A DNA stretch of 64,000 nt from Oxalobacteraceae bacterium (GTDB lineage Bacteria > Pseudomonadota > Gammaproteobacteria > Burkholderiales > Burkholderiaceae_D): the NCBI GenBank assembly GCA_013284265.1, contig JABTBR010000004.1, positions 1 through 64,000 of the forward strand. The letters run 5' to 3'. Positions 17,909-30,463 of the stretch are shown piece after piece (the first letter of the stretch is position 1; each line of letters starts with the position of its first letter). The notes under the pieces were generated by a model. The model saw only the letters and a program-made list of their open reading frames with translations. It was not told the DNA's origin and made no database searches. The position numbers were made by a program, and so were the translations under genes.

Positions 17909-18649
17909 ATGGCCATGTCGAGGATATTCTTTCTGCTGTCGTTAATGTGCAGCCTGGCCGCGCAGTGCCGGGAGTTGAAATTTGTCGGTCAGGAATCGCC
18001 GGCCTTCAATTCCACGGTGGCGGGAACTTACACGGGCGCAATGATCGATATTGCTCAGGCAATATGCGTGCGGCTTGGCCACCAGTGCTCCTTCACCGGC
18101 ATGCCGCTGCTCCGGGCGCTGACGGAAAGCCGCATCGGCCACGCCGACGCGGTGCTCAGCCTCTTGCTGAACGACGAACGCTCCGCCTACCTGACCTTCA
18201 GCGACGGCATCATCGTGTCCCATGTCGCCTTTCTCGGCAAACCAGGCGCCAGTCCGGTGCGCAGCGAAAGCGAACTGGACGGTTACACGGTGGCGTCGGT
18301 ACGGGGCTCGACCACGCTGCGCATGCTCGAAGACAAGGCCGTCCGGCTGAGCAAGATGCGGGTCATGTCCGAAACCGATATCGCCACCATCCTGCAGAAG
18401 CTGCATGCCGGCCGCTATGGCGAGCAGGGCCTCATCTTCGGTCCCCAGGTGATGCTGGAAAACGCCGCCACGGAACTGGGCATACCCACGGTGGCGGTGC
18501 TGGTTGCCGACAAGCTGGAGTTCCGCCTGGGGTTTTCAAAACGGCTGGAGCCGGCCATCGTGAGCGATTTCAATAGCGAGTTGAAGAAACTGCGCAGTAC
18601 AGGAGAATTGGCGCGCATCGCCAGGAAGTACGGGCTAGACGTGGACTAG
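17909..18649 (+). CDS. Periplasmic solute-binding (SBP_bac_3-like) protein
   Basis: The 246-residue product has a signal peptide (IFFLLSLMCSLAAQ) followed by a type II periplasmic binding fold: FVGQESPAFNSTVAGTYTGAMIDIAQAIC, DAVLSLLLNDERSAYLTFSDGI, and a terminal KLRSTGELARIARKYG. This resembles polar amino-acid binding proteins of ABC systems, but no permease or ATPase is adjacent. I start at ATG 17909 because upstream codons lack a signal sequence. A TATACT at 17888-17893 could be a -10 box, though its best -35 candidate (TTGATG) is 20 bases away. The ligand is unknown; a sensory or accessory role is possible. Confidence 0.8.
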   Translation: MAMSRIFFLLSLMCSLAAQCRELKFVGQESPAFNSTVAGTYTGAMIDIAQAICVRLGHQCSFTGMPLLRALTESRIGHADAVLSLLLNDERSAYLTFSDGIIVSHVAFLGKPGASPVRSESELDGYTVASVRGSTTLRMLEDKAVRLSKMRVMSETDIATILQKLHAGRYGEQGLIFGPQVMLENAATELGIPTVAVLVADKLEFRLGFSKRLEPAIVSDFNSELKKLRSTGELARIARKYGLDVD

Positions 18650-18668
18650 GCGGGCTTGGTATCAGCGG

Positions 18669-18794
18669 CGTGCCCGCCGCGAGCGTGTCGACGATCCACT
18701 TCGTCATGTCGTTGAAGCCCTTGTGCATGTCGGAGCGCAGTTCAGCGAATTTCCCTTCAATCTTCGCTTCCATGGTCGCAATGCGGCCACCCAT
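18669..18794 (-). pseudogene. Fragment of a coiled-coil membrane protein gene
   Basis: On the minus strand these codons read MEAKIEGKFAELRSDMHKGF followed by NDMTKWIVDTLAAG. This closely parallels the middle of the hypothetical protein at 44935-45327 (ELAALQGEMNKGFADMVKWVVGTAMALG). Similarity stops just at the start of the expected membrane helix, where the sequence runs into the end of the convergent solute-binding gene. No start with a clear ribosome-binding site or intact C-terminus is visible. It is best read as a truncated relic. Confidence 0.55.
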
Positions 18795-18837
18795 CCCGAA
18801 TACCCGTGACTTATAATGAATTTCCTCGTGTCAAGAC

Positions 18838-19626
18838 ATGGAGCCTCCCTTGCCTCGCTTGTCCGCCAAGTTCCGCCATGCCGGCGTGCTGGTTTCGGCA
18901 CTGTTGTTGTGCGGCATCGTGATGGCCGCGACAGAGGTCCGCACGGCCGCGCAGGTGGGCACTGAGCCGAAATTTCAAACCGATGCAGGTAGCGGTGCGG
19001 TCGTCGGGATCTGCATCGATATCATGCGCGCCATCGAGCGCCAGGACCCCAGCCTCAGCTTCAGCGGCCAGCAAGACTGGCAGCCCTTGACCCGTATATA
19101 CTCCGCTATGGATCATGCCAGGCTGGATGCCAGTTGCGGTCTGTCGCACTCGCCTGAGCGGGACAAGAAATACAACTATGTCGGTCCGGTGCTGTTCAGC
19201 ATACGCTACCATCTGATCGCGCGCCTCGATGACCCGGTTTCGGTCAGCAACTGGGACGATGTGCGCAAGCTGGGGCCGGATAATATTGTGTTGGCCAATC
19301 GCGGCTTTGCCGCAGTGACGATACTGGAAAATGCCGGTGTTGAGCAAATCGACTCCGGTGCGGCGAGCCCCCAGTTGAACGTGCAAAAATTGCTGGCCCG
19401 CCGCGGCCGCTTTTTCTTTCATCGCGCTCCAGGCCTGCAGGCCACATTGAACCGCACCGGTTACGGCAGCAAGCTCCGGATATTGCCGACGGAAATGGCG
19501 AGCAGCAAGCTGTACTTTGTCGTCGGTAAGCATGTGGGGGAAAACCTGATCGTCCGCTTGCGCAACGCATTGCTGGCGCTGGAAAAAAGCGGCGAGCTCG
19601 AACGCATCGCCAACAGCTGGGAATAG
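18838..19626 (+). CDS. Second periplasmic solute-binding (SBP_bac_3-like) protein
   Basis: The 262-residue protein has an N-terminal export helix (HAGVLVSALLLCGIVMAA, about residues 14-31). A binding-protein fold follows: VVGICIDIMRAIERQDPSLSF, DASCGLSHSPERDKKYNYVGPVLFSIRYHLIARLDD, and a final LLALEKSGELERIANSW. It belongs to the same broad family as the preceding gene but is only distantly similar to it. No transporter partner is nearby. A TATAAT at 18812-18817 lies 20 bases before the ATG, a plausible -10 box. The ligand cannot be inferred. After it, 153 bases of mostly AT-richer DNA lead to the SWIM gene. Confidence 0.8.
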   Translation: MEPPLPRLSAKFRHAGVLVSALLLCGIVMAATEVRTAAQVGTEPKFQTDAGSGAVVGICIDIMRAIERQDPSLSFSGQQDWQPLTRIYSAMDHARLDASCGLSHSPERDKKYNYVGPVLFSIRYHLIARLDDPVSVSNWDDVRKLGPDNIVLANRGFAAVTILENAGVEQIDSGAASPQLNVQKLLARRGRFFFHRAPGLQATLNRTGYGSKLRILPTEMASSKLYFVVGKHVGENLIVRLRNALLALEKSGELERIANSWE

Positions 19627-19779
19627 GCGTGCGCTTGCTTCAGACTGGCGACACGGCAAGAAGCCCAGGCCAACTTTCCTGGCGCATGGGCTGGGGGGAC
19701 TGGATTTTGCTGCTCCAACACATCATAATTGCATATTAAGTAAGCTTTCCCATGCTTACGCAATTCCACCCACATTTTA

Positions 19780-21162
19780 ATGACACTGACGACAGATCAA
19801 ATCCTGGCACTCGCGCCAGACCCGGCTTCGGCGAAAGCGGGTAGCGCTCAATCGAGCCAGTCCAAATGGTCCGGACTTGGCGGCCACGCGCAAGCCTTGT
19901 GGGGACTGTGCCAGGGCAGCGGCAAAGACCCCTACAAAGCCCAGATCGAATTGGCTGGCCCTGCCTTCAAGTGTAGCTGCCCCAGCCGCAAATTCCCCTG
20001 CAAGCACGGGCTGGGACTGTATCTGCTGTATGCCAGCAACGCGGCGGCCTTTGCCGGAACGAATGCGCCCGACTGGGTCAGCGACTGGCTGCAAAGCCGC
20101 GAGCAGCGCAGTGAAAAAAAAGCCGCCAAACTGGCCGATGCCGAGGCCGCACAAACCCCGGCCGAACTCGCGGCCCGCGAACAAGGCCAGCAAAAACGCC
20201 AGGAACGGCGCGAGGGAAACGTCGAAGCCGGCCTCGCGGTGCTCGACACCTGGCTGGCCGATCTGGCGCGCGACGGCCTGGCGGGCCTGCGCAGCAAACC
20301 GGCCAAGGATTGGGAAACCATGGCGGCCCGCCTGGTCGATAGCCAGGCGGCGGGACTGGCGGCGCGGGTAAGGCGCGCAGGCATGCTGATCTATGGTTCA
20401 AGCGCGCATGCCTGGGAAGTGCCGGTGGCGCGCGAGTTGGCGCAACTTGCCCTGTTGAGCCAGGGTTACCGGAATATGGACAGCCTGCCCGCCGCCTTGC
20501 GGCAGGATGTGCGCAGCGCGATCGGCTGGGTGCTCAACCAGGACGAAGTGCTGGCGGCGGAGGGCAGCAGCGATCTCTGGACCGTGTGCGGCAATCATAC
20601 CCAGGATGAGGCGCGCGTTAGCCGCCGCGCTTGCTACCTGCACGGCCAGCGCAGTGGGCGCTGGGCCATGCTGCTGCAGTTTTCGGCCGGTGCGCAGGCG
20701 TTGCCACCGCCGTTGCTGCCGGGCACCGCTTATCAGGGGACGGTTCACTTTTATCCCGGCGCAGCGCCGTTGCGGGTGGCTTTCGGCGCCGATATGCAGA
20801 TGAGCGGCGCCGCTGGTGCCGCCAACGCCGGCGTGGGCTCCGCACCGGCTCCCGCTTCGGACATCACCGGCTTGCTGACCGAATTTGCCCATGTGCTGGC
20901 ACGCAATCCATTCACGGAACACCACCCTATGCTGTTGGAACAAGTCATTCCGCAACAGCTGGATGGCCAGTTTGTGCTGCGCGCTCAGGACGGCGCGCTG
21001 CTGCCGATCGACCCCGGCTTCCGCCACGGCTGGCAGTTGCACGCGCTCGCGGGCGGCGCCCCGGTTCGCGTGTGTGGTCTGTGGAACGGCTACGCCTTGC
21101 TGCCGCTGGCCGTGACATGCCACGGACGCCCGTACACCCTCGATGGCGGGAGCGGGCAATGA
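19780..21162 (+). CDS. SWIM zinc-finger protein, first gene of the MoxR/VWA operon
   Basis: The 460-residue protein carries the SWIM motif CSCPSRKFPCKH (Cys65, Cys67, Cys74, His76), a zinc-binding module for nucleic acid or protein contacts. The stretch at about 100-150 is rich in Ala, Glu, Arg and Lys and probably helical. The remainder has no recognised catalytic motif. Its stop overlaps the next ATG (ATGA), the first of four such overlaps in this operon. The set resembles the E. coli yeh genes, where a SWIM protein (YehQ) accompanies a MoxR ATPase and a VWA protein. Its molecular role is unknown. Confidence 0.85.
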   Translation: MTLTTDQILALAPDPASAKAGSAQSSQSKWSGLGGHAQALWGLCQGSGKDPYKAQIELAGPAFKCSCPSRKFPCKHGLGLYLLYASNAAAFAGTNAPDWVSDWLQSREQRSEKKAAKLADAEAAQTPAELAAREQGQQKRQERREGNVEAGLAVLDTWLADLARDGLAGLRSKPAKDWETMAARLVDSQAAGLAARVRRAGMLIYGSSAHAWEVPVARELAQLALLSQGYRNMDSLPAALRQDVRSAIGWVLNQDEVLAAEGSSDLWTVCGNHTQDEARVSRRACYLHGQRSGRWAMLLQFSAGAQALPPPLLPGTAYQGTVHFYPGAAPLRVAFGADMQMSGAAGAANAGVGSAPAPASDITGLLTEFAHVLARNPFTEHHPMLLEQVIPQQLDGQFVLRAQDGALLPIDPGFRHGWQLHALAGGAPVRVCGLWNGYALLPLAVTCHGRPYTLDGGSGQ

Positions 21163-22766
21163 ACCTGAACCTGTCCCTTCACAAGGCCTTGCTGGCGGGC
21201 GTGGCGCGTGCGCCTATCGGTCCCGATAGTGCCGATATCGCCCTGCGGCCGCTGCTCGCCAGCGTGCCCGAACCCTTACGTCTGTGGCACAGCGTGGCCG
21301 CGAGCGATCTGTGGCAGCGGGCCGGATTTCAGCCATCGCAAGCGACGCCGCAAACGGCCTGCGTTGAGGAGCGAACCTGTCCGCGTGCGGCCGAACAGAT
21401 GCTCGACCAGATCTTGCGCGGCATTCATCCCGAACAGCTGCTCAACTGGCTGGCCCTGGCGCAGCAACACGGCATGAAGCTGCCGCACGCTGCGCTGGTG
21501 CCCTTGCTGGACATGGGCATGCAAAAACCGGCCTTGCGTATTGCGCTGAGCCGCCTGCTGGGCCAGCGCGGCCAATGGCTGCTGGCCCAGTACCCGGCCT
21601 GGTCCGATGCTTTCCAGCTGGCAGGAGAGGAGAGTGCGGAGACGCACTGGCAGTTGGGTACGCTTGAGCAACGCTGCCTGGCCTTGCAGGCGATGCGGCG
21701 TGCCGATCCTGTCGCGGCCCTGGCCGCGCTTGCCGCAGGCTGGGCGCAGGAAACGCTGGAGGGCCGCAGCGCGCTGCTGCCTTGCCTGGCCACTGGATTG
21801 GGGCCGCTTGATGAGGACTTCCTCGAACAGGCGCTGGACGATAAACGCAAGGAAGTCAGGATGGCGGCCCAGCAATTGCTGGGATGCCTGCCCGGTTCCC
21901 GGTTGAGTGAGCGCTGCAAGACGCGTCTGACAGCGTTAATGGCACTCGAACGCAAGACTGGACTGGGCGCGCGGCTGGGGGCGATGCTCGGCATGGAAGG
22001 ATTGCCGACCTTGACGCTGGTGCTGCCCGAGACCTGCGACAAGGCCATGAAGCGCGATGGCATCGGCATCCAGTCGCACTACGGCATGGGCGAAAAAGCC
22101 GGCTGGATACTCGACCTGATGCGCTGCGTTGCGCCGGCGCACTGGAGCGTAACCTGGCAGTTGGCGCCGCAGCAAGTGCTCGCCGTGCTGGCGCAGCAGG
22201 AATTCAAGACCGCCCTGATCACCGGACTGGTACAGGCTTCGGCACGCACCTTGAGCGTGCAGCCCAGCGCCGCCGCCATCGACTGGTTTGTGATGCTGGC
22301 GGGCGATGGCGCCCAAGTGAAGACGGAGTTGAATATCCCCGGCATGCTGATGCACGATCTGGAGCGCCTGCCGCAGCCGGAGCAGGAAGGCATCGTGTTG
22401 CACTGGCTGGAGGATGGATCGAGCGGCACGCATGGCTTCGACCTGGCGCTGGCGTGGGCAGGCCAGCGTAGCGGAGCCGAGGGCGCCGCGTTCCCGTCCG
22501 CGCTGTCCGATCAGCTATCGCGCCGCTTGCTGGCGATCATCCAGCGCCAGATGGTGGCGGCGCCGCAGCCGGGCTATCACACGCGCGGCCAGTTTGCCGT
22601 GCTGGCGCAGGCGCTGGCCGCCACCAGCCTGGACTACGCGCACGCCAACTGGCCCGCCAGCGACTGGGAGCACTGGCCGCAATGGCGCGCGCTGGTCGAC
22701 GGTTTGATCGACACACTACAATTTCGCCACACTATGCAGAGCAGTTTTTTGGAGACAGACGCATGA
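21159..22766 (+). CDS. DUF5691-family protein
   Basis: The 535-residue product starts at the ATG overlapping the SWIM stop (MNLNLSLHKALLAGVARAPI). It is mainly helical with repeat-like segments such as ALRIALSRLLGQRGQWLLAQYP and LDDKRKEVRMAAQQLLGCLPGS, recalling HEAT-type scaffolds, and it has no obvious active site. I assign DUF5691 by its position between a SWIM protein and a MoxR ATPase and by the N-terminal pattern; the function of that family is unknown. Longer readings starting inside the SWIM gene are shadows. It is coupled by ATGA to the ATPase gene. Confidence 0.75.
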   Translation: MNLNLSLHKALLAGVARAPIGPDSADIALRPLLASVPEPLRLWHSVAASDLWQRAGFQPSQATPQTACVEERTCPRAAEQMLDQILRGIHPEQLLNWLALAQQHGMKLPHAALVPLLDMGMQKPALRIALSRLLGQRGQWLLAQYPAWSDAFQLAGEESAETHWQLGTLEQRCLALQAMRRADPVAALAALAAGWAQETLEGRSALLPCLATGLGPLDEDFLEQALDDKRKEVRMAAQQLLGCLPGSRLSERCKTRLTALMALERKTGLGARLGAMLGMEGLPTLTLVLPETCDKAMKRDGIGIQSHYGMGEKAGWILDLMRCVAPAHWSVTWQLAPQQVLAVLAQQEFKTALITGLVQASARTLSVQPSAAAIDWFVMLAGDGAQVKTELNIPGMLMHDLERLPQPEQEGIVLHWLEDGSSGTHGFDLALAWAGQRSGAEGAAFPSALSDQLSRRLLAIIQRQMVAAPQPGYHTRGQFAVLAQALAATSLDYAHANWPASDWEHWPQWRALVDGLIDTLQFRHTMQSSFLETDA

Positions 22767-23854
22767 GCACCGCAATCACCAATGTAATGAGACAGCACGC
22801 CGAGCAACAGTACGCGCATGAACTGAGCGCGCTGAAAGAAGCCGACGAGCGCCAGCGTCCACCCAACTGGGAATTGTCGCCCTGGGCCGTGGCGACCTAT
22901 CTGCTGGGCGGCAAGCTCGACAACGGATTCGAGATCAGCCCCAAGTACATCGGCAAGCGCCGCCTGATCGAAATCGCCGTCGCCACGCTGGCGACCGACC
23001 GTGCGCTGTTGCTGCTGGGCGTGCCCGGCACGGCCAAGTCCTGGGTGTCGGAACACCTGGCCGCCGCCATCAGCGGCAACTCGACGCTGGTGGTGCAGGG
23101 CACCGCCGGTACCGCCGAGGAAACCATCCGTTACGGCTGGAACTACGCCCAACTGCTGGCCAAGGGCCCGAGCCTGGATGCGGTCGTGCCCAGCCCGGTC
23201 ATGCGCGCCATGCGCACCGGCAAGATCGCCCGTATCGAAGAGCTGACCCGGATTCCGGCCGAGGTGCAGGACAGCTTCATCAGCCTGCTGTCCGAGAAAA
23301 TCCTGCCGATTCCCGAACTGGACGACTATGTGCAGGCGGCCAAGGGCTTCAACGTGATCGCCACGGCGAACGACCGCGACCGCGGCGTCAATGAATTGTC
23401 GAGCGCCCTCAAGCGGCGCTTCAATACGGTTGTACTGCCCCTGCCCGATTCGGCCGACGAGGAAGTGACGATCGTGGAATCACGCGTCGCCAGCCTGGGG
23501 CGTTCGCTGGAGCTGCCTGTCGAAAAGCCGGCGCTGCAGGAAATCCGCCGCATCGTCACCATCTTCCGCGAGCTGCGTTCCGGCCAGACCGACGACGGCA
23601 AGATCAAGCTCAAATCGCCATCGGCCAGCATGAGCACGGCCGAAGCCATCGCGGTGGTCACCAATGGCATGTCGCTGGCGGCGCACTTCGGCGACGGCAC
23701 CTTGCGCGGTGCCGACATGGCCTCGTCGATGGTGGGCGCGATCGTCAAGGACCCGGTGCAAGACCGTTTGATCATGCTGGAATACCTGGAAACCGTCGTC
23801 AAGGAACGTGAAGGCTGGAAGGATCTGTACCGCGCCTGCCACGCCGTGCTATGA
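22763..23854 (+). CDS. MoxR-type AAA+ ATPase (YehL-like)
   Basis: The 363-residue ATPase has Walker A GVPGTAKS at residues 86-93. The Walker B region reads KIARIEELTRIPAEVQDSFISLL, with Glu-Glu where many MoxR proteins have Asp-Glu. Sensor 1 is NVIATANDRDRGVNELSSALKRRFNTV, which also includes the arginine-finger region. MoxR ATPases work as hexameric remodelling chaperones with a VWA partner, and the partner is encoded two genes on. GGAGACAG precedes the ATG at 22763. The gene overlaps both neighbours by four bases. Confidence 0.92.
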   Translation: MSTAITNVMRQHAEQQYAHELSALKEADERQRPPNWELSPWAVATYLLGGKLDNGFEISPKYIGKRRLIEIAVATLATDRALLLLGVPGTAKSWVSEHLAAAISGNSTLVVQGTAGTAEETIRYGWNYAQLLAKGPSLDAVVPSPVMRAMRTGKIARIEELTRIPAEVQDSFISLLSEKILPIPELDDYVQAAKGFNVIATANDRDRGVNELSSALKRRFNTVVLPLPDSADEEVTIVESRVASLGRSLELPVEKPALQEIRRIVTIFRELRSGQTDDGKIKLKSPSASMSTAEAIAVVTNGMSLAAHFGDGTLRGADMASSMVGAIVKDPVQDRLIMLEYLETVVKEREGWKDLYRACHAVL

Positions 23855-26196
23855 CGCTGCATTTACTGGGCATACGCCACCACGGGCCGGGGTGCGCGCG
23901 CAGCGTGGCGCAGGCCCTGGCGCAGCTGCGGCCGGACCTGATCCTGATCGAAGGCCCACCCGAGGCCGACGCGCTGCTGGCACTGGCCGCGCGGACCGAC
24001 ATGCGCCCGCCGGTGGCGCTGCTGATCTACGCGCCGGCCATGCCACGCCATGCGGTGTATTACCCCTTCGCCGAATTTTCGCCCGAGTGGCAAGCCATCC
24101 AGTACGGCCAGGCGCACGCGATACCGACCCGCTTCATCGACCTGCCGCAAGCGCATGCGCTGGCGCAGGCCATGACGGCGGACGATGCGCCGGCCGAAGG
24201 CGGCAGCGACGCCGGCAGCGGCGCCGACAGCGGCGCCGACAGCGGCGCCGACAGCGGCGCCGACAGCGCGGACATTGCCGGCGATGTGGACGACACCAAT
24301 GTGGACGACGCCGGCCTGGTCCCCGAGCCGGAACCGGCCTTGCGGCGCGGCGACGTGCTGGCCGGCCTGGCGCAGGCCGCCGGCTTTGCCGATTCCGACA
24401 CCTGGTGGGACCACCTGGTCGAACAGCGCCAGGACAGCCTGGAGCTGTTCGCCGCCATCGAGGAAATGATGACGGTGGCGCGCCAGGACCCGGTCCAGCC
24501 GCTGGAACCCCATGAAGCCCGGCGCGAAGCCCATATGCGCCAGATGATACGGCTCGGCATCAAGCAGGGACATCAGAACATCGCCGTCATTTGCGGCGCC
24601 TGGCATGTGCCCGCGCTGCGCGACATGCCCACCGCCAAGCACGACAAGGACCTGCTCAGCGATCTGCCCAAAGCCAAGGTCGCGGCCACCTGGACCCCGT
24701 GGAGCTACGGCCGTCTGAGTTTTAACAGCGGCTACGGGGCAGGGGTGCAGGCGCCCGGCTGGTACCATCATCTGTGGCACACGCCGCATAAGGCGCCGGT
24801 GTACTGGCTGGCCGATGCCGTCCGTCTGCTGCGCAAGCACGGGCTGGACGCCTCCTCGGCCCACATGATCGAAGCGCTGCGTCTGGCCGATACGCTGGCC
24901 AGTCTGCGCGAGCGTTCGCGTGCCGGCCTGGGCGAACTGCTGGAAGCGCTGCAAAGCGTGCTGTTTGGCGACAGCGACGCCCCTTTGCGGCTGATCGAGC
25001 GCGAGCTGCTGGTCAATGACCGCCTCGGTGGGGTGCCGGCCGACACGCCGACCCTGCCGCTGCCGCAAGACGTGCGCCAACTGCAAAAGCGCCACCGGAT
25101 GGCGCCGCGCGCCGACCAGATCGACCTTGAGCTCGACCTGCGCCAGCCCGCCCATCTCGATAAAAGCACTTTCTTGCATCGGCTGGCCCTGCTGGACATT
25201 GCCTGGGGCAAGACGCGTGTGGTGCATGGCAAGAGCGGCAGCTTCCATGAACAATGGAAGCTGGCGTGGGAGCCCGAGTTCGAACTGAAGCTGATCGAGG
25301 CGAATGTCTGGGGGGCGACGCTGGAGCTGGCTTGTTGCGCCAGCCTGTGCCACAAGTCCGGCCAGCTGCAGCAGCTGCCCGAGCTGACCGTGCTGGTGGA
25401 GCGGATGCTGCTGGCCGACGTGCGGCGCGCGGTGCCGGTGCTGATGGCGCGCATGCAGGCCCTGGCCGCCAGCACCCAGGATGCCGGCGTGCTGCTGGCG
25501 GCGCTGGCGCCGCTGGCCAACGTTGTGCGTTACGGTAATGTGCGCGGCAGCAATACCGCCAGCGTCGCCGAAGTGATGGATGGCCTGGTGCAGCGCGCCT
25601 GCATCGCCTTGCCGGTGGCGGCCCGCGGCATCAACGAAGAGGCGGCCCAACTGCTGCTGGGGCAACTGATTCAGGCCGACCAGGCGATCGCCCTGTTGCA
25701 GCTGGCCGAACACAAGGCTGCGTGGATGGCGGCGCTGGAGCAATGCGTCAAGGTCCAGGCGCACCCGCTGATCGCCGGGCGCGCCGTGCGCATCCTGTTC
25801 GAGCAGGACTACTGGAATGTGGAGCAGAGCGCGCAAGCGCTGTCGCTTGCCTGCAGCAATCCGATCAACCCGGGCGCCACGGCCGAATGGCTGGAGGGCT
25901 TCCTGCGCGGCAGCGGCCTGCTGCTGGTGCTGAACGACGCGCTGTGGCACATCCTGAACGGCTGGATCGCCACGCTGCCCGAGCCGGCCTTCACCGAATT
26001 GCTGCCGCTGCTGCGGCGCACCTTCGCCACCTTTGCGGCGCCGGAGCGGCGCCAGTTGGGCGAGCGCGTGGCCCATGGCAGCGTGACGCTGGCGGCGGTC
26101 CCGCTCAACGGCACCGACGCGGCGCGCGCCGCCCTGGTGCTGCCTATCCTGGCGCAGCTGCTGGGCGCCCCAGCGAGTATCGAGGAAATAGCATGA
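23851..26196 (+). CDS. DUF5682-family protein (YehM-like)
   Basis: The 781-residue protein begins MTLHLLGIRHHGPGCARSVAQAL, then ILIEGPPEADALLAL, an N-terminal alpha/beta domain with a conserved GxRHHGPG signature. The middle has HQNIAVICGAWHVPALR. The C-terminal half is helical. Residues about 110-150 form an acidic linker with four exact GADS repeats (see 24220-24267). The length is close to E. coli YehM. The function is unknown; its fixed position between MoxR and VWA genes suggests a substrate or adaptor of the ATPase complex. It overlaps both neighbours by ATGA. Confidence 0.85.
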   Translation: MTLHLLGIRHHGPGCARSVAQALAQLRPDLILIEGPPEADALLALAARTDMRPPVALLIYAPAMPRHAVYYPFAEFSPEWQAIQYGQAHAIPTRFIDLPQAHALAQAMTADDAPAEGGSDAGSGADSGADSGADSGADSADIAGDVDDTNVDDAGLVPEPEPALRRGDVLAGLAQAAGFADSDTWWDHLVEQRQDSLELFAAIEEMMTVARQDPVQPLEPHEARREAHMRQMIRLGIKQGHQNIAVICGAWHVPALRDMPTAKHDKDLLSDLPKAKVAATWTPWSYGRLSFNSGYGAGVQAPGWYHHLWHTPHKAPVYWLADAVRLLRKHGLDASSAHMIEALRLADTLASLRERSRAGLGELLEALQSVLFGDSDAPLRLIERELLVNDRLGGVPADTPTLPLPQDVRQLQKRHRMAPRADQIDLELDLRQPAHLDKSTFLHRLALLDIAWGKTRVVHGKSGSFHEQWKLAWEPEFELKLIEANVWGATLELACCASLCHKSGQLQQLPELTVLVERMLLADVRRAVPVLMARMQALAASTQDAGVLLAALAPLANVVRYGNVRGSNTASVAEVMDGLVQRACIALPVAARGINEEAAQLLLGQLIQADQAIALLQLAEHKAAWMAALEQCVKVQAHPLIAGRAVRILFEQDYWNVEQSAQALSLACSNPINPGATAEWLEGFLRGSGLLLVLNDALWHILNGWIATLPEPAFTELLPLLRRTFATFAAPERRQLGERVAHGSVTLAAVPLNGTDAARAALVLPILAQLLGAPASIEEIA
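24220..24267 (+). repeat. 12-bp tandem repeat coding for (GADS)4
   Basis: Four exact copies of GGCGCCGACAGC lie in frame in the DUF5682 gene, preceded by a related unit. Unit length is a multiple of three, so gain or loss of units changes only linker length and not the reading frame. Confidence 0.95.
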
Positions 26197-27341
26197 GTAC
26201 CGAAAAAATCGGCCAGGCGGCACTGGAACGGCGCTGGCGCCTGATGCTGGGCAGCGAGGCGGAGAACCTGACGCTGCCGGACGCCGATGTGGCGCTGGAA
26301 CGCACCCTAGGCGCGCTGTACGACCAGCGCGAGGGGCGCGGCAGCCTGCAGGGTTCGGCGCCCAATGTGGCGCGCTGGCTGGGCGACATCCGCGAATATT
26401 TTCCCGCCAGCGTGGTGCAGGTGATGCAGAAGGATGCGATGGAGCGCCTCGGCCTTCAGCAGATGCTGCTCGAACCGGAGATGCTGCGCAGTGTGCAGCC
26501 GGACGTGCACCTGGTCGCCACCTTGCTGTCGCTGAACCGCCTGATGCCCAGCAAGACCAGGGAGACCGCGCGCCAGGTGGTGCGCACCGTGGTCGAACAG
26601 CTGGAGCGCCAGCTGGCCAACCCGCTGCGCCAGGCGGTCAGCGGCAGTCTGAACCGGGCAGCCCGCAACCACCGGCCGCGCCACAACGAAATCGACTGGC
26701 TGCGCACCATCCGCGCCAATCTGCGCCACTACCAGGCCGATTACCAGACCATCATCCCCGAGCGCCGCATCGGCTTCGCACGCCGCAGCCAGAGCCTGCG
26801 CGATATTGTGCTGTGCGTGGATCAGAGCGGCTCGATGGCGCCCTCGGTAGTGTATGCCAGCGTGTTCGCGGCGGTGCTGGCCAGTATCAAGGCGGTCAGT
26901 ACCCAGGTGGTGGTGTTCGATACCGCGGTGGTGGACCTGACGCCGCTGCTGGCCGATCCGGTGGACGTGCTGTTTGGCACCCAGCTCGGCGGCGGCACCG
27001 ATATCGACCGTGCGCTGGCCTATTGCCAGGGCCTGGTCAAACGGCCGCAGGAGACAATCTTCGTGCTGATCAGCGATCTGTACGAAGGCGGCAATGCCGC
27101 GCAGATGCTGGCACGCGCCAGCGCCCTGGTCGACAGCGGCGTGCAGATGATCGCCCTGCTGGCGCTCGACGACCACGGGGCGCCAAGCTACGACCATCGT
27201 CATGCTGCGCACTTTGCCAGTCTCGGCATCCCATGTTTCGCCTGCACGCCCGACAAATTCCCCGACCTGATGGCCGCGGCGATCAGGAAGCAGGATATGA
27301 TGGCCTGGGCGGCACAGCACGACATCGCGATCGGCGGCTAG
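26193..27341 (+). CDS. VWA-domain protein, partner of the MoxR ATPase (YehP-like)
   Basis: The 382-residue product has a helical N-terminal region (1-200) and a C-terminal von Willebrand A domain. The metal-dependent adhesion site DQSGS (Asp210, Ser212, Ser214) is intact, with later GGGTDIDRAL (Thr contact) and VLISDLYEGG. MoxR/VWA pairs act together in metal insertion or complex assembly, with VWA binding the target. The ATG at 26193 overlaps the DUF5682 stop and the length agrees with YehP. It ends the operon; the next gene begins 52 bases later with its own leader. Confidence 0.9.
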   Translation: MSTEKIGQAALERRWRLMLGSEAENLTLPDADVALERTLGALYDQREGRGSLQGSAPNVARWLGDIREYFPASVVQVMQKDAMERLGLQQMLLEPEMLRSVQPDVHLVATLLSLNRLMPSKTRETARQVVRTVVEQLERQLANPLRQAVSGSLNRAARNHRPRHNEIDWLRTIRANLRHYQADYQTIIPERRIGFARRSQSLRDIVLCVDQSGSMAPSVVYASVFAAVLASIKAVSTQVVVFDTAVVDLTPLLADPVDVLFGTQLGGGTDIDRALAYCQGLVKRPQETIFVLISDLYEGGNAAQMLARASALVDSGVQMIALLALDDHGAPSYDHRHAAHFASLGIPCFACTPDKFPDLMAAAIRKQDMMAWAAQHDIAIGG

Positions 27342-27393
27342 TTGGCACAGCCTGCCGGGTGCCCGTGGCGGTCTTTCATCTCCAAGGAATCCG

Positions 27394-29271
27394 ATGCAAA
27401 CGATACCCGAAACCGAAGCCGCCACCGATAACGGCGATACCACCATCCTGAGCACCATGGTCAGCCGGCGCGTCATGTGGCTGCGCCTGGCCACCGGTCT
27501 GGCGCAGAGCGTGCTGCTGTTCTGGCTGCACGAAGCCAACAAGGGCAGGGCGTGGCCCGCCAATGAACCTTATCTGGCCGTGCCGCTATTCTTCATCGCC
27601 ATGCTGTTGCCGGTGCTGCTGGTGTCCAGCCTGGGCCACATGACGCGGCGCCGCGCCGTGGCCTGGATGGCCGTGGCGCTGCTGGCGATGGTGGCGCTGT
27701 CGGTGCACGACGTCTGGCGCGGCGCGGGCGCGGCCCGCCAGATGGTGAATGGCCAGGAAACGCTTCAGTTCGCGCCATCGTTTCTGCTGATCGCCTTCGG
27801 CTGGGCTTTCTTTTATATCGCCCAGTCGCTGGTGCTGGCCGGCGCATCCGAGGGGCGGCTGGTGGCGCGCTACTCTACTTACTTCGAGACGGCCTGGAAG
27901 CTGGTGATCCAGCTGAAGTTTTCAGTCATGTTCGCCGCCGCGATGTGGGCCGTGCTGTTGCTGGGGAGTTTGCTGTTCAAGCTGGTCAAGCTGGATTTCC
28001 TGGGGCACTTGATGGACCAGCCCTGGTTCGCCTTGCCCGTGACTTGCTGCGCGTTTGCGTGGGCCATGCACATCACCGACGTGCGCCCGGCCATTGTGCG
28101 CGGCATCCGCACGCTGCTGCTGGTGCTGATGTCCTGGATACTGCCGCTGACGGCGCTGCTGATCACGGTGTTTCTATGCTGTATGCCCTTCACGGGCATG
28201 AATACCTTGTGGCAGACCGGCCACGCCACCGCCTTGCTGCTGGCGGCCGATGCGGTGCTGCTGGTGCTGATCAACGCGGCTTTCCAGCATGGCGGCGCGC
28301 CGGAAGGCGTGGCCGCGCCCGTGCGGGGCAGCGCGCGGCTTGCATCCTTGCTGCTGTTGCCGCTGACCGCCATCGCCATCCATGCGCTGGCGCTGCGGGT
28401 GGGCGACTACGGCTGGAGCACCGACCGCGTGATCGCGGCGGCCTGCCTGCTGGTGGCCAGTTGCTACGCGCTCGGCTATGCCTGGGCCGCCTGCCGCCTC
28501 GGCAGCTGGCTGGCGCTGATCGCTCCGGTCAATGTGTTTGCCGCTTTCCTGGTGCTGGCGGTGGTATTCAGCCTGTTTACGCCGCTCGCCGACCCGGCCC
28601 GGCTGTCGGTCAATGACCAGCTGGCGCGGCTGGAGCGTGGCCGCATCACGGCCGCGAAGCTGGACTACCGCTTCCTGCGCTTCGAAGGTGGGCGCTATGG
28701 CAAGGCGGCGCTGGAACAACTGGCGCAGCGCAGTACCGGACCGGAAGCGGCACTGCTACGCGAGAAAGCCGCAGCCGTACTGAAGGAAACCGAGCGCTGG
28801 GGAAGCCGTCCCGAGGATGCGCCGGTGGCGGCGCCACTCACGCCGGCGGCGATCGCGGCCAATGTGAAAGTGTGGCCGGCCGGTGCCGCGCTGCCGGCCG
28901 ACTTCCTGGCCACGCCATGGAGCAAGGTCGATTTTGAGCGTCCAACCATGCAGGGCTGCCTGACGCACGCCGGCGTCGGCTGCGAGCTCACCATGCTGGA
29001 CGTGGATGGCGATGGCAAACAGGAGATCCTGCTGTTCGGAGAAACGGATATGGTGCCGATACTGTTCGCCCGCCAGCCCACCGGTGGCTGGGCGATACTG
29101 GGCCGGCTGCCGGGCCTCGGCGGCTGCGTAGCGCTGCGCGACAAGCTGAGGACGGGCAGCTTCAAGCTGGTACCGCCGCGTGTGCTTGATCTGGAAGTCG
29201 GCGGCCAGCGCATCATGGTCGACCGCGACGCCCGGGTAAGCAACTGGAACGTTTGCGGCGGAATCAAGTAG
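27394..29271 (+). CDS. DUF4153-like polytopic membrane protein
   Basis: The 625-residue protein has about ten to twelve hydrophobic helices between residues 25 and 410. Among them is AWKLVIQLKFSVMFAAAMWAVLLLGSLLF followed by LPVTCCAFAWAMHITDVRP, a pattern I associate with DUF4153. The last 200 residues are soluble, with an LDVDGDGKQEILLFGETD motif like an FG-GAP calcium-binding repeat and a final cysteine-containing tail. Its function is unknown. It may be read through from the VWA operon but is not overlapped with it. Its 3' end overlaps the convergent MFS gene by eight bases with no terminator between. Confidence 0.7.
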   Translation: MQTIPETEAATDNGDTTILSTMVSRRVMWLRLATGLAQSVLLFWLHEANKGRAWPANEPYLAVPLFFIAMLLPVLLVSSLGHMTRRRAVAWMAVALLAMVALSVHDVWRGAGAARQMVNGQETLQFAPSFLLIAFGWAFFYIAQSLVLAGASEGRLVARYSTYFETAWKLVIQLKFSVMFAAAMWAVLLLGSLLFKLVKLDFLGHLMDQPWFALPVTCCAFAWAMHITDVRPAIVRGIRTLLLVLMSWILPLTALLITVFLCCMPFTGMNTLWQTGHATALLLAADAVLLVLINAAFQHGGAPEGVAAPVRGSARLASLLLLPLTAIAIHALALRVGDYGWSTDRVIAAACLLVASCYALGYAWAACRLGSWLALIAPVNVFAAFLVLAVVFSLFTPLADPARLSVNDQLARLERGRITAAKLDYRFLRFEGGRYGKAALEQLAQRSTGPEAALLREKAAAVLKETERWGSRPEDAPVAAPLTPAAIAANVKVWPAGAALPADFLATPWSKVDFERPTMQGCLTHAGVGCELTMLDVDGDGKQEILLFGETDMVPILFARQPTGGWAILGRLPGLGGCVALRDKLRTGSFKLVPPRVLDLEVGGQRIMVDRDARVSNWNVCGGIK

Positions 29272-30463
29272 CGCGGCTCTTTGGTCTCACGCTAATAGCC
29301 AAGCCGGCGGAACTTGAATCATCTGATTTTTGTCCTAGGTAAGGCAGCAGGCTGATCAGTCCAAGGATGGCCAGCGCGACAGCGACCCACAGCGGCGAAC
29401 GCAAGCCGTAGCCGGCGGCGATTCCCAGGCCGCCGGCCCAGGAGCCGGCGCCCAGGCCGATGTTGATGACGGACGTATGAATGGTGTTGACCAGCGGCCC
29501 CGGATGCGCGGTGCGCATCACGCGGGCGATGATGGCGGGATTCATCGACATGCCGACCAGGCCAATCACGGTCAGCAAGACCACGCTGACCGTTTTATCC
29601 TGCGCAAAGACGGCGAACAGCGCCAGGCTGATGCTCAGCACGAGCATGCCCCCGACCATGATGGGGATGGTGTGCCGGTCCGCATACCGGCCCACCACGC
29701 CATTGCCCACCACGTTCGCGACGCCATACACGCCAAGCAGCCAGGGAATCGAAGACGATGGAAAGCCGGTAACCTCCGTCAGGATAGTTGTGAAATAGCT
29801 GAAGGCGGCGAAGATCGCACCGATGATCAGGCCGCTGCTGGCAAAGGCGGCCCACAGATGGCGATTGCGGAACTCCCCCAACTCCGCGCCCAGACTGAGC
29901 ACGTCAGACGGTTTGGAGCGCGGCACCAGCAGCGCGATGGGGACCATGCACAAGAGTGCCAGCAGCACCACCAGCCAGAAGCTGGCGCGCCATCCCCACT
30001 GCTGGTCGATGAGCGTGGCGACCGGCAGGCCGACGACGGAAGCGAGCATCAGTCCGCCGATCACGACCGCGGCGGCCCGTCCCCGGAATTGCGGGCCGAC
30101 CACGTCGGCACAGATCGCCAGGGACAGGCCGAAGCAGGCCGAGCCGGCCACACCCGTGACTACCCGGGCGATGGCCATGACCTCATAGCTGTCCGCCGAT
30201 GCCGCGACGGCTTGGGCAAGGGCGTAGCAGCCCAACAGGCCGAGCAGTCCCTGCTTATTCGGCACCCGCAGCTTGAGCAAGGCAACGGTGATCAAGGGTC
30301 CGCCGATGACCATGCCCGTTGCGTAGAGCGAGATCAGATAGCCGATCTGCGTTACCGGCACGCCCATGGCCTGGGCCAGTGAGGGCATCATGCCGGCCAC
30401 CATGAATTCGGAGGTGGTCAAGGAAAAGATCGTCAATCCCAGGATGTAGACAAGCAAGGGCAT
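29264..30463 (-). CDS. MFS (DHA1/AraJ-type) efflux transporter, last gene of the vio operon
   Basis: The 399-residue protein has twelve predicted helices. N-terminal signatures are LTIFSLTTSEFMVAGMMPSLA and the A-motif-like loop RGRAAAVVIGG. The ATG at 30463 was chosen because AAGGA lies 8 bases upstream and the preceding 21 codons are vioE downstream sequence. Only 19 bases separate it from vioE, so it belongs to the same transcript as vioABCDE. Export of violacein, intermediates or tryptophan-derived toxic by-products is a reasonable inference; drug or sugar efflux is also possible. The classical Chromobacterium operon has only five genes. Confidence 0.88.
   Translation of the reverse strand: MPLLVYILGLTIFSLTTSEFMVAGMMPSLAQAMGVPVTQIGYLISLYATGMVIGGPLITVALLKLRVPNKQGLLGLLGCYALAQAVAASADSYEVMAIARVVTGVAGSACFGLSLAICADVVGPQFRGRAAAVVIGGLMLASVVGLPVATLIDQQWGWRASFWLVVLLALLCMVPIALLVPRSKPSDVLSLGAELGEFRNRHLWAAFASSGLIIGAIFAAFSYFTTILTEVTGFPSSSIPWLLGVYGVANVVGNGVVGRYADRHTIPIMVGGMLVLSISLALFAVFAQDKTVSVVLLTVIGLVGMSMNPAIIARVMRTAHPGPLVNTIHTSVINIGLGAGSWAGGLGIAAGYGLRSPLWVAVALAILGLISLLPYLGQKSDDSSSAGLAISVRPKSRAT

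Follow-up and report, generated by a model that had tools for sequence, protein, structure and literature searches.

A widely conserved SWIM–DUF5691–MoxR–DUF5682–VWA operon and its candidate role as a remodelling machine with a hydrolase-like subunit

Overall layout of the operon

A stretch of 64,000 nucleotides from an Oxalobacteraceae bacterium (contig JABTBR010000004.1, positions 1 to 64,000; hereafter the window), part of a 6.9 Mb genome, carries five adjoining genes that encode a SWIM zinc-finger protein, a DUF5691 protein, a MoxR-type AAA+ ATPase of the YehL kind, a DUF5682 protein and a CoxE-like VWA protein (Table 1). An earlier note, made from the letters of the window, had read these domains and had joined the genes through four ATGA overlaps, and the list of open reading frames (ORFs), the letters at the junctions (21159-21162, 22763-22766, 23851-23854 and 26193-26196) and Pfam all bear this out. 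Pfam bit scores are 355.7 for DUF5691, 130.3 for AAA_5, 844.7 for DUF5682 and 178.5 for VWA_CoxE, and SWIM scores 19.6, exactly its cut-off; none of the five window proteins has an NCBIfam match above the cut-offs. The longest listed ORFs for genes 2, 3 and 5 open upstream, at 20631, 22682 and 25722, respectively, and within these longer frames the starts of the earlier note (21159, 22763 and 26193) each coincide with the in-frame ATG of an overlap.

Table 1 Genes and features of the operon in the window
Feature	Position	Strand	Basis
Gene 1, SWIM zinc-finger protein, 460 aa	19780..21162	+	ORF as listed; PF04434
SWIM motif CxC...CxH, residues 65-76	19972..20007	+	C65, C67, C74, H76 invariant in 39 sequences
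Gene 2, DUF5691 protein, 535 aa	21159..22766	+	PF18944, E 8.8e-106
Gene 3, MoxR-type AAA+ ATPase, YehL kind, 363 aa	22763..23854	+	PF07728, E 6.7e-38
MoxR Walker A, G86-S93 (G86, P88, G89, T90, K92 invariant)	23018..23041	+	76 sequences; motif name presumed
MoxR Walker B acidic pair, E159-E160	23237..23242	+	Invariant in 76 sequences; motif name presumed
Gene 4, DUF5682 protein, 781 aa	23851..26196	+	ORF as listed; PF18934, E 8.7e-254, residues 19-771
TIKI/TraB/ChaN-like alpha/beta domain (predicted), residues 1-290	23851..24720	+	Predicted structure, profile comparison
His10-His11 after first strand; His10 on first His of TraB	23878..23883	+	Invariant in 79 sequences
Glu34 after second strand	23950..23952	+	Invariant in 79 sequences
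His252 in GAWH after strand 243-249; on TraB GAGH His	24604..24606	+	Invariant in 79 sequences
C-terminal mostly helical part, about residues 300-771; repeat-like helices from about 475	24748..26163	+	Predicted structure
Gene 5, VWA (CoxE-like) protein, 382 aa	26193..27341	+	PF05762, E 1.7e-52
VWA MIDAS DxSxS, D210, S212, S214; T269 and D295 complete the site	26820..26834	+	Invariant in 72 sequences; motif name presumed

The gene order is conserved across phyla

Relatives were collected by scanning named genomes with a DUF5682 alignment; because the best 80 loci were kept, the set leans towards closer relatives, the most similar named loci being those of Duganella, Massilia and Rugamonas. The five families were located in these loci with iterated profiles, and incomplete loci were rechecked by tblastn. 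The order SWIM–DUF5691–MoxR–DUF5682–VWA, termed type I here, is whole and on one strand in 66 of the 80 loci, from eight phyla (Bacteroidota, 30; Pseudomonadota, 23; Verrucomicrobiota, Acidobacteriota and Thermodesulfobacteriota, 3 each; Cyanobacteriota, 2; Armatimonadota and Chloroflexota, 1 each), so that the search for conserved order proposed in the earlier note finds the genes together rather than scattered. The same five-gene order is annotated in Deinococcus (Deinococcota) records of a plasmid collection and is recovered by profiles in Nonomuraea and Nocardia (Actinomycetota), and Fusobacterium carries SWIM, MoxR, DUF5682 and VWA genes with a 1.9 kb gap at the expected place of DUF5691. 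In two records, Hymenobacter sp. HDW8 and Nocardia farcinica, SWIM and DUF5691 are read as one open frame; the Hymenobacter frame is possibly a record error, because in H. radiodurans, a close relative of HDW8, the two are annotated separately, in a record whose DUF5682 and VWA frames are broken.

Within the window's genus, DUF5682 occurs in 16 of 74 genomes, seven of them type I and nine, by score, type II (the Escherichia coli form described below), with the type II gene context read in four of those nine. DUF5691 scores above its cut-off in exactly the seven type I genomes, near DUF5682 and on the same contig; one additional match, below the cut-off, lies elsewhere in the genus. Given the conserved order in eight phyla and the shared SWIM–DUF5691 frame, the five genes are a genuine co-evolved unit, and together with the co-occurrence of DUF5691 and DUF5682 these observations uphold the earlier proposal of one system.

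Among the 14 incomplete loci, four (L041, L079, L088 and L093) hold all the parts that fit before the contig start as well as VWA after DUF5682, and in L065, which has VWA, the 0.9 kb preceding DUF5682 lacks MoxR. The other nine are all metagenome-assembled genome (MAG) records and are weighed below. Short contigs account for part of the incomplete MAG loci, and L040, L042 and L058 are true exceptions or assembly faults. In one cyanobacterial MAG (L042, 10001-12265) a DUF5682 gene is found with the other four absent within 10 kb on either side. Insertions also occur within the order. Two genes, the first of which is probably DNA cytosine methyltransferase-like by its motifs, lie between MoxR and DUF5682 in L069 (7832-9849), and what is presumably a small antitoxin-like and PIN-like pair, again by its motifs, lies between DUF5682 and VWA in L090 (12387-13006). 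A small extra gene stands between MoxR and DUF5682 on plasmids of Deinococcus (L191, 6768-7004) and Hymenobacter (L193, 6368-6979).

The junctions themselves are less constant than the order. ATGA is found at junctions 1 to 4 in 24, 26, 6 and 24, respectively, of the 67 complete loci (the 66 and the window), and the spacing in relatives ranges from overlap up to hundreds of bases. The earlier suggestion that the overlaps imply fixed protein ratios is rejected, because the window alone among the 67 loci has ATGA at all four junctions. As such, the overlaps are a local property and not a conserved trait, and translational coupling may operate at the window operon.

A phylum-wide sample of 398 genomes has DUF5682 in 14. 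Matches occur in 32 of the 72,556 records of the plasmid collection, some of which are as large as chromosomes, and no relative was found in the viral_contigs collection by patterns and tblastn. An unannotated 14 kb faecal record named "Bacteriophage sp." has a DUF5682 match.

A proposed MoxR–VWA motor and SWIM–DUF5691 module

The Walker A and Walker B motifs, N203 and R218-R219 of the MoxR protein are invariant in 76 sequences; we take N203 to be the sensor asparagine and R218-R219 to be the arginines of the MoxR ATPase site. Similarly, D210, S212, S214, T269 and D295 of the VWA protein, which make up its MIDAS, are invariant in 72 sequences, so the MoxR–VWA core recognised from the start stands with both its ATPase motifs and its metal site intact. 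A sequence search of the Protein Data Bank (PDB) links MoxR to structures of midasin and NorQ (NorQ, E 1.2e-6). In the NorQD system, the VWA protein inserts a finger into the pore of MoxR, and a model has been put forward in which ATP turnover twists the partner (PMC13036017, in excerpt).

An AlphaFold2 model of DUF5691 (pLDDT 89.1, pTM 0.80) is almost all helix, and its best structure matches are the importin-alpha, AP and PP2A scaffolds, with Z up to 9.0 (rmsd 17.4, 290 aligned), a value in the range that helical repeats reach through their common arrangement. DUF5691 is thus predicted to be an ARM/HEAT-like helical solenoid, in agreement with its earlier description as HEAT-like; since Z is 9.0 and below and the rmsd large, ARM/HEAT-like names a class and not a family. 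By sequence, the PDB held nothing convincing for DUF5682, SWIM, DUF5691 or VWA, and two weak DUF5691 matches (E 0.0064 and 0.018) were disregarded.

DUF5682 carries a candidate enzyme site

DUF5682 was modelled with AlphaFold2 as the full-length protein from a 60-sequence alignment (pLDDT 88.0, pTM 0.82). In the model, an N-terminal domain built of strands 2-8, 30-33, 55-61, 64-73, 93-95, 243-249 and 278-283, with helices between, precedes a mostly helical C-terminal part that contains three more strands between residues 424 and 471. A Gly-Ser-Ala-Asp repeat insert at about residues 118-165 (window 24202-24345) is modelled at pLDDT <50 and is absent or shorter in eight aligned relatives. The name "repeat-linker protein", once given to DUF5682, is ruled out by this alignment and the model: the repeat is a low-confidence insert in a protein made of an alpha/beta domain and a mostly helical part.

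Two comparisons point to the relatives of the N-domain. Over the 1000 best Foldseek chains, VIA-align 2 ranks 7w5z_E at the top (185 aligned over residues 1-264, with Z 9.4 and rmsd 5.2), the sole match confined to the N-domain among the 50 listed, the remainder lying mainly on the helical part; Foldseek with full-length DUF5682 gives mostly helical-repeat matches without significance among the matches listed. Entry 7W5Z holds a complex IV dimer from Tetrahymena, a complex reported to include a TraB-family protein among its accessory subunits (PMC10060162, in excerpt). In the second comparison, hhalign with 79 N-domain sequences, obtained by adding 19 of both types to type I, gives ChaN with probability 83 (P 9.1e-6) and TraB with probability 34 (P 4.3e-4). 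TraB and ChaN are known relatives, and compared with each other as a yardstick they reach P 2.8e-6. Reversed controls give 0.038 for TraB, 0.02 for ChaN and 0.73 for the esterase, and the operon's other families compared with the DUF5682 N-domain give P 0.12-0.44 (reversed, 0.3 or worse). Erythromycin esterase, tried as a third yardstick, proved uninformative, TraB itself not being significant against the esterases (P 0.2). The TraB profile compared with the PDB matched designed helical proteins and no TraB structure.

In the alignment, His10 falls on the His of the TraB GxxH motif, Glu34 on the strand-end Glu of TraB and His252 on the GAGH His, and R225-M229 is aligned to the arginine-containing helix of TraB and ChaN. 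H10, E34, R225, E226 and H252 are invariant in the 79 DUF5682 sequences; a second Glu of the 2His/2Glu motif was not located in the N-domain. Catalysis by His and Glu and the 2His/2Glu motif have been described for the TIKI superfamily (PMC6254334, in excerpt). From the profile alignment and the model, the N-domain of DUF5682 probably has a TIKI/TraB/ChaN fold with a candidate enzyme site. This enzyme-like domain appears to have been previously unrecognised. A literature search, in which subscription journals are poorly covered, found nothing on DUF5682, DUF5691, PF18934 or PF18944, nothing joining a SWIM zinc finger with MoxR and no paper characterising the yehL operon; PMC10652928 mentions all four yeh genes by name.

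An E. coli-type sister form with DUF4132

The set of E. coli K-12 comprises yehI (DUF4132), yehK, yehL, yehM, yehP and yehQ; YehL is a named MoxR subfamily (PMC3893208 and PMC11834572, both in excerpt) and one of two MoxR proteins of this strain (PMC3893208). The earlier note likened the window genes to yehL/M/P/Q, and the likeness is clear for the first three, the identities being 42% for MoxR and YehL over the whole length, 31% for DUF5682 and YehM and 35% for VWA and YehP, but it fails for YehQ in BLASTP, where gene 1 has no meaningful similarity, and amounts there to a weak collinear profile match of the SWIM protein (P 0.0043). The yehLMPQ genes, at least 80% covered, are present in 5162 of 5426 E. 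coli genomes.

The sister order is DUF4132–MoxR–DUF5682–VWA–SWIM. Eighteen regions retrieved from genus and phylum relatives divide into six of type I, the window form, and 12 of type II, the E. coli form. DUF5691 is found in none of the 12 type II regions at E 1e-4, and DUF4132 is present in 11, in one to three copies, the exception (L122) having its contig end just past DUF5682. DUF4132 precedes MoxR in ten regions and follows DUF5682 in L124, likewise in a Sinorhizobium plasmid. VWA is found in ten of the 12, and an iterated profile finds a YehQ-like SWIM in the same ten; in the other two (L122 and L124) the available stretch stops before the expected place of those genes. One genome (G292) has both forms. 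In four congeners of the window's genome (L113-L116) the operon is of the E. coli type, and one or two DUF4132 genes lie upstream of it within the sequence that was read. In a MoxR tree built by a quick method with very long outgroup branches, type II forms one side of a branch with SH-aLRT 100 inside a type I background, and 35 type I and 13 type II rows, YehL included, are split by a 98* branch from RavA and three paralogues of the window's own genome, the RavA row having 12% of its columns filled.

DUF4132 also lies 10-82 bases past the type I VWA gene in 12 of the 80 loci according to blastp clusters, and a profile also recovers it in 11 of the 12; the loci are from Bacteroidota, mostly Chitinophagales by title (for example, L080 13356-16361). 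A profile of DUF5691 aligns with the central part of DUF4132 (P 2.4e-4; DUF5682–DUF4132, 0.048; DUF5682–DUF5691, 0.22), and on this basis DUF4132 probably takes over the role of DUF5691 as the type II solenoid. Of four type II DUF4132 proteins scanned, two have a WGR domain and a third has HEAT_2; YehI has neither. WGR is also found in E. coli YehF, near yehI-yehLMPQ.

Surroundings of the window operon

Twenty bases ahead of gene 1 lies an inverted repeat, GTAAGC-TTTCCCAT-GCTTAC, with an 8-base spacer (window 19740-19759). It is absent from the upstream inverted repeats of 13 relatives, and a shared upstream operator was rejected. A scan of 19400-27700 found no sigma-70-like promoter, and Rfam gave no match at the gathering score in 18000-29500. 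Past the operon, window 27394-29271 encodes a DUF4153-like protein, below the Pfam cut-off, with relatives in 55 of the 74 genus genomes. In the type I congeners that have them, this gene and a neighbouring binding-protein gene are either on a different contig from the operon or well away from it, so a common insertion site in the genus was rejected, and no empty operon site was found.

Proposed mechanism and alternative readings

We regard the chances as evenly balanced that the operon encodes a YehL-type MoxR–VWA remodelling machine with a hydrolase-like DUF5682 subunit. By analogy with NorQ–NorD, the MoxR ATPase ring would turn or pull its VWA partner, whose metal site, to judge from the family, would grip the target. 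Since DUF5682 would place a TIKI/TraB/ChaN-fold active site on a helical scaffold, the motor is proposed to remodel a dedicated target and present it to, or open, the hydrolase, which would probably be peptidase- or esterase-like. Recognition and scaffolding would fall jointly to the SWIM zinc protein and the DUF5691 solenoid, and in the E. coli-type sister DUF4132, some copies of which carry WGR or HEAT, would probably stand in the place of DUF5691. We infer assembly into a single complex, catalysis, a substrate and a physiological role, the last lying in processing a target or controlling its quality and less in defence against phage; the NorQD mechanism is carried over to the window set by analogy. 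A fuller claim, which we advance tentatively and think somewhat likelier to fail than to hold, is that the set would be an ATP-gated hydrolase of new architecture, combining a MoxR–VWA motor, a TIKI-fold DUF5682 and a SWIM–ARM module, with two interchangeable forms that together reach about ten phyla and almost every E. coli. If this is true, the ATP-gated hydrolase would be a common bacterial protein-processing machine. With the operon placed as one form of a five-part set that has two, and a TIKI-type active site probable in YehM/DUF5682, a vague "chaperone with an unknown target" gives way to three named invariant residues, mutants of which can be tested in a laboratory strain.

Several observations weigh against the remodelling machine with a hydrolase-like subunit. 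Foldseek alone, with full-length DUF5682, gives no match at E 0.001 or better; the 7w5z_E match has an rmsd of 5.2 and 12% identity, and we infer that this chain is the TraB-family subunit. With type I sequences alone the profile matches are weak (TraB P 0.0029, ChaN P 0.0035, probability about 10; controls 0.089 or worse), and neither the erythromycin esterase match (P 0.14) nor that of TraB with the esterases is significant. The fold is no proof of hydrolysis, because ChaN, the closest profile, is named in Pfam for haem binding. Among the 80 loci, nine (L036, L038, L040, L042, L044, L046, L058, L074 and L085) have no VWA by tblastn in the 0.3-10 kb available after DUF5682; MoxR is likewise absent from the 10 kb (L042) and 6.5 kb (L044) preceding DUF5682, and in L074 it is lacking between DUF5691 and DUF5682. 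In L038, no SWIM was found in the 1.5 kb preceding DUF5691.

The haem-binding family bears on cofactor or metal insertion, in which MoxR–VWA would open a client for metal loading and the DUF5682 domain would bind the cofactor and not be hydrolytic. DUF5682 resembles PF04187, the haem-binding family of Pfam, more closely than it resembles TraB, the VWA protein is CoxE-like, the MoxR protein matches NorQ structures at the E value given above, and NorQD offers a precedent (PMC13036017, in excerpt). We nevertheless consider insertion unlikely, as the TIKI-type His10, Glu34 and His252 are invariant and no client metalloenzyme recurs beside the loci, where flanking-ORF clusters (many flanks are short) reach at most 12 of 80 loci, that one being DUF4132.

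An anti-phage or conflict system, akin to the described MoxR–VWA ternary conflict systems (PMC7159879, in excerpt), seems to us less probable still. The near-universal presence of yehLMPQ in E. coli argues against a typical variable defence system, the best PADLOC match for the five proteins is IetA at E 0.015, and bpMoxR reaches 25.9 bits, below its cut-off of 27. For the neighbours, 139 of 220 ORFs were scanned, from 16 of 26 loci chosen from the 80, by a longest-ORF rule that may admit false ORFs; single neighbours match PADLOC models (reverse transcriptase, ThsB, AbiEi and others), but no family matched more than one of the 139 (no control set). Patchiness in the window's genus, with type I in 7 and type II in 9 of 74 genomes by score, and occurrence on some plasmids would fit defence. 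On balance, the role in defence that the earlier note raised as one option is disfavoured, and the search for nearby defence genes that it proposed gave no recurring family among the neighbours scanned.

Improbable, in our estimate, is a stress or DNA-damage nucleoprotein machine, which SWIM and WGR domains would bring to nucleic acid and which would strip or process proteins there. It draws on the WGR domains of two of the four scanned type II DUF4132 proteins and of the nearby YehF, and on Deinococcus, where depleting DdrO, the DNA-damage repressor, strongly induces the drA0165-drA0166 operon, whose DRA0166 has DUF4132 (PMC8533742, in excerpt). No WGR match was obtained in YehI or in one scanned Bacteroidota DUF4132 protein, however, and DUF4132 stands beside 12 of the 80 type I loci. 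Finally, mere co-transcription without joint function, which varying junction spacing, inserts and the MAG loci without VWA or MoxR beside DUF5682 might suggest, is strongly disfavoured and has very little chance of being right, given an order kept in eight phyla, the exact co-occurrence of DUF5691 with type I DUF5682 in the genus and two shared frames.

Comparison with known systems

Like NorQ–NorD, CbbQ–CbbO and other MoxR–VWA pairs, the window set joins a MoxR-type AAA+ protein to a VWA partner with an intact MIDAS; unlike them, it adds DUF5682, DUF5691 and SWIM and has no adjoining client enzyme that we recognised. RavA–ViaA of E. coli likewise consists of a MoxR protein and a VWA partner (PMC3893208, in excerpt), but the tree places RavA apart from the YehL-type group, albeit at the end of a very long branch and from the sparse row noted above. 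The MoxR–vWA–beta-propeller (VMAP) ternary systems also combine MoxR and VWA with further components, whereas the window's bpMoxR score lies below the cut-off and no beta-propeller Pfam family is found at E 0.1. With TIKI/TraB/ChaN proteins (EreA), DUF5682 shares an N-domain most of which can be aligned with TraB and ChaN and in which the His, Glu and His are kept; it differs in that a large part, mostly of helices, is joined to this domain and that its gene belongs to a MoxR–VWA operon, and its esterase match is not significant. E. coli yehLMPQ with yehI has homologous MoxR, DUF5682 and VWA genes adjoining in the same relative order, and a SWIM member, but there SWIM is last, where in the window it is first, and the two are weakly alike, DUF5691 is missing and DUF4132 lies upstream. 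Among the YehL-type MoxR–VWA systems, then, the window operon represents the type I form of a set kept in many phyla, with a probable TIKI-fold enzyme subunit in DUF5682.

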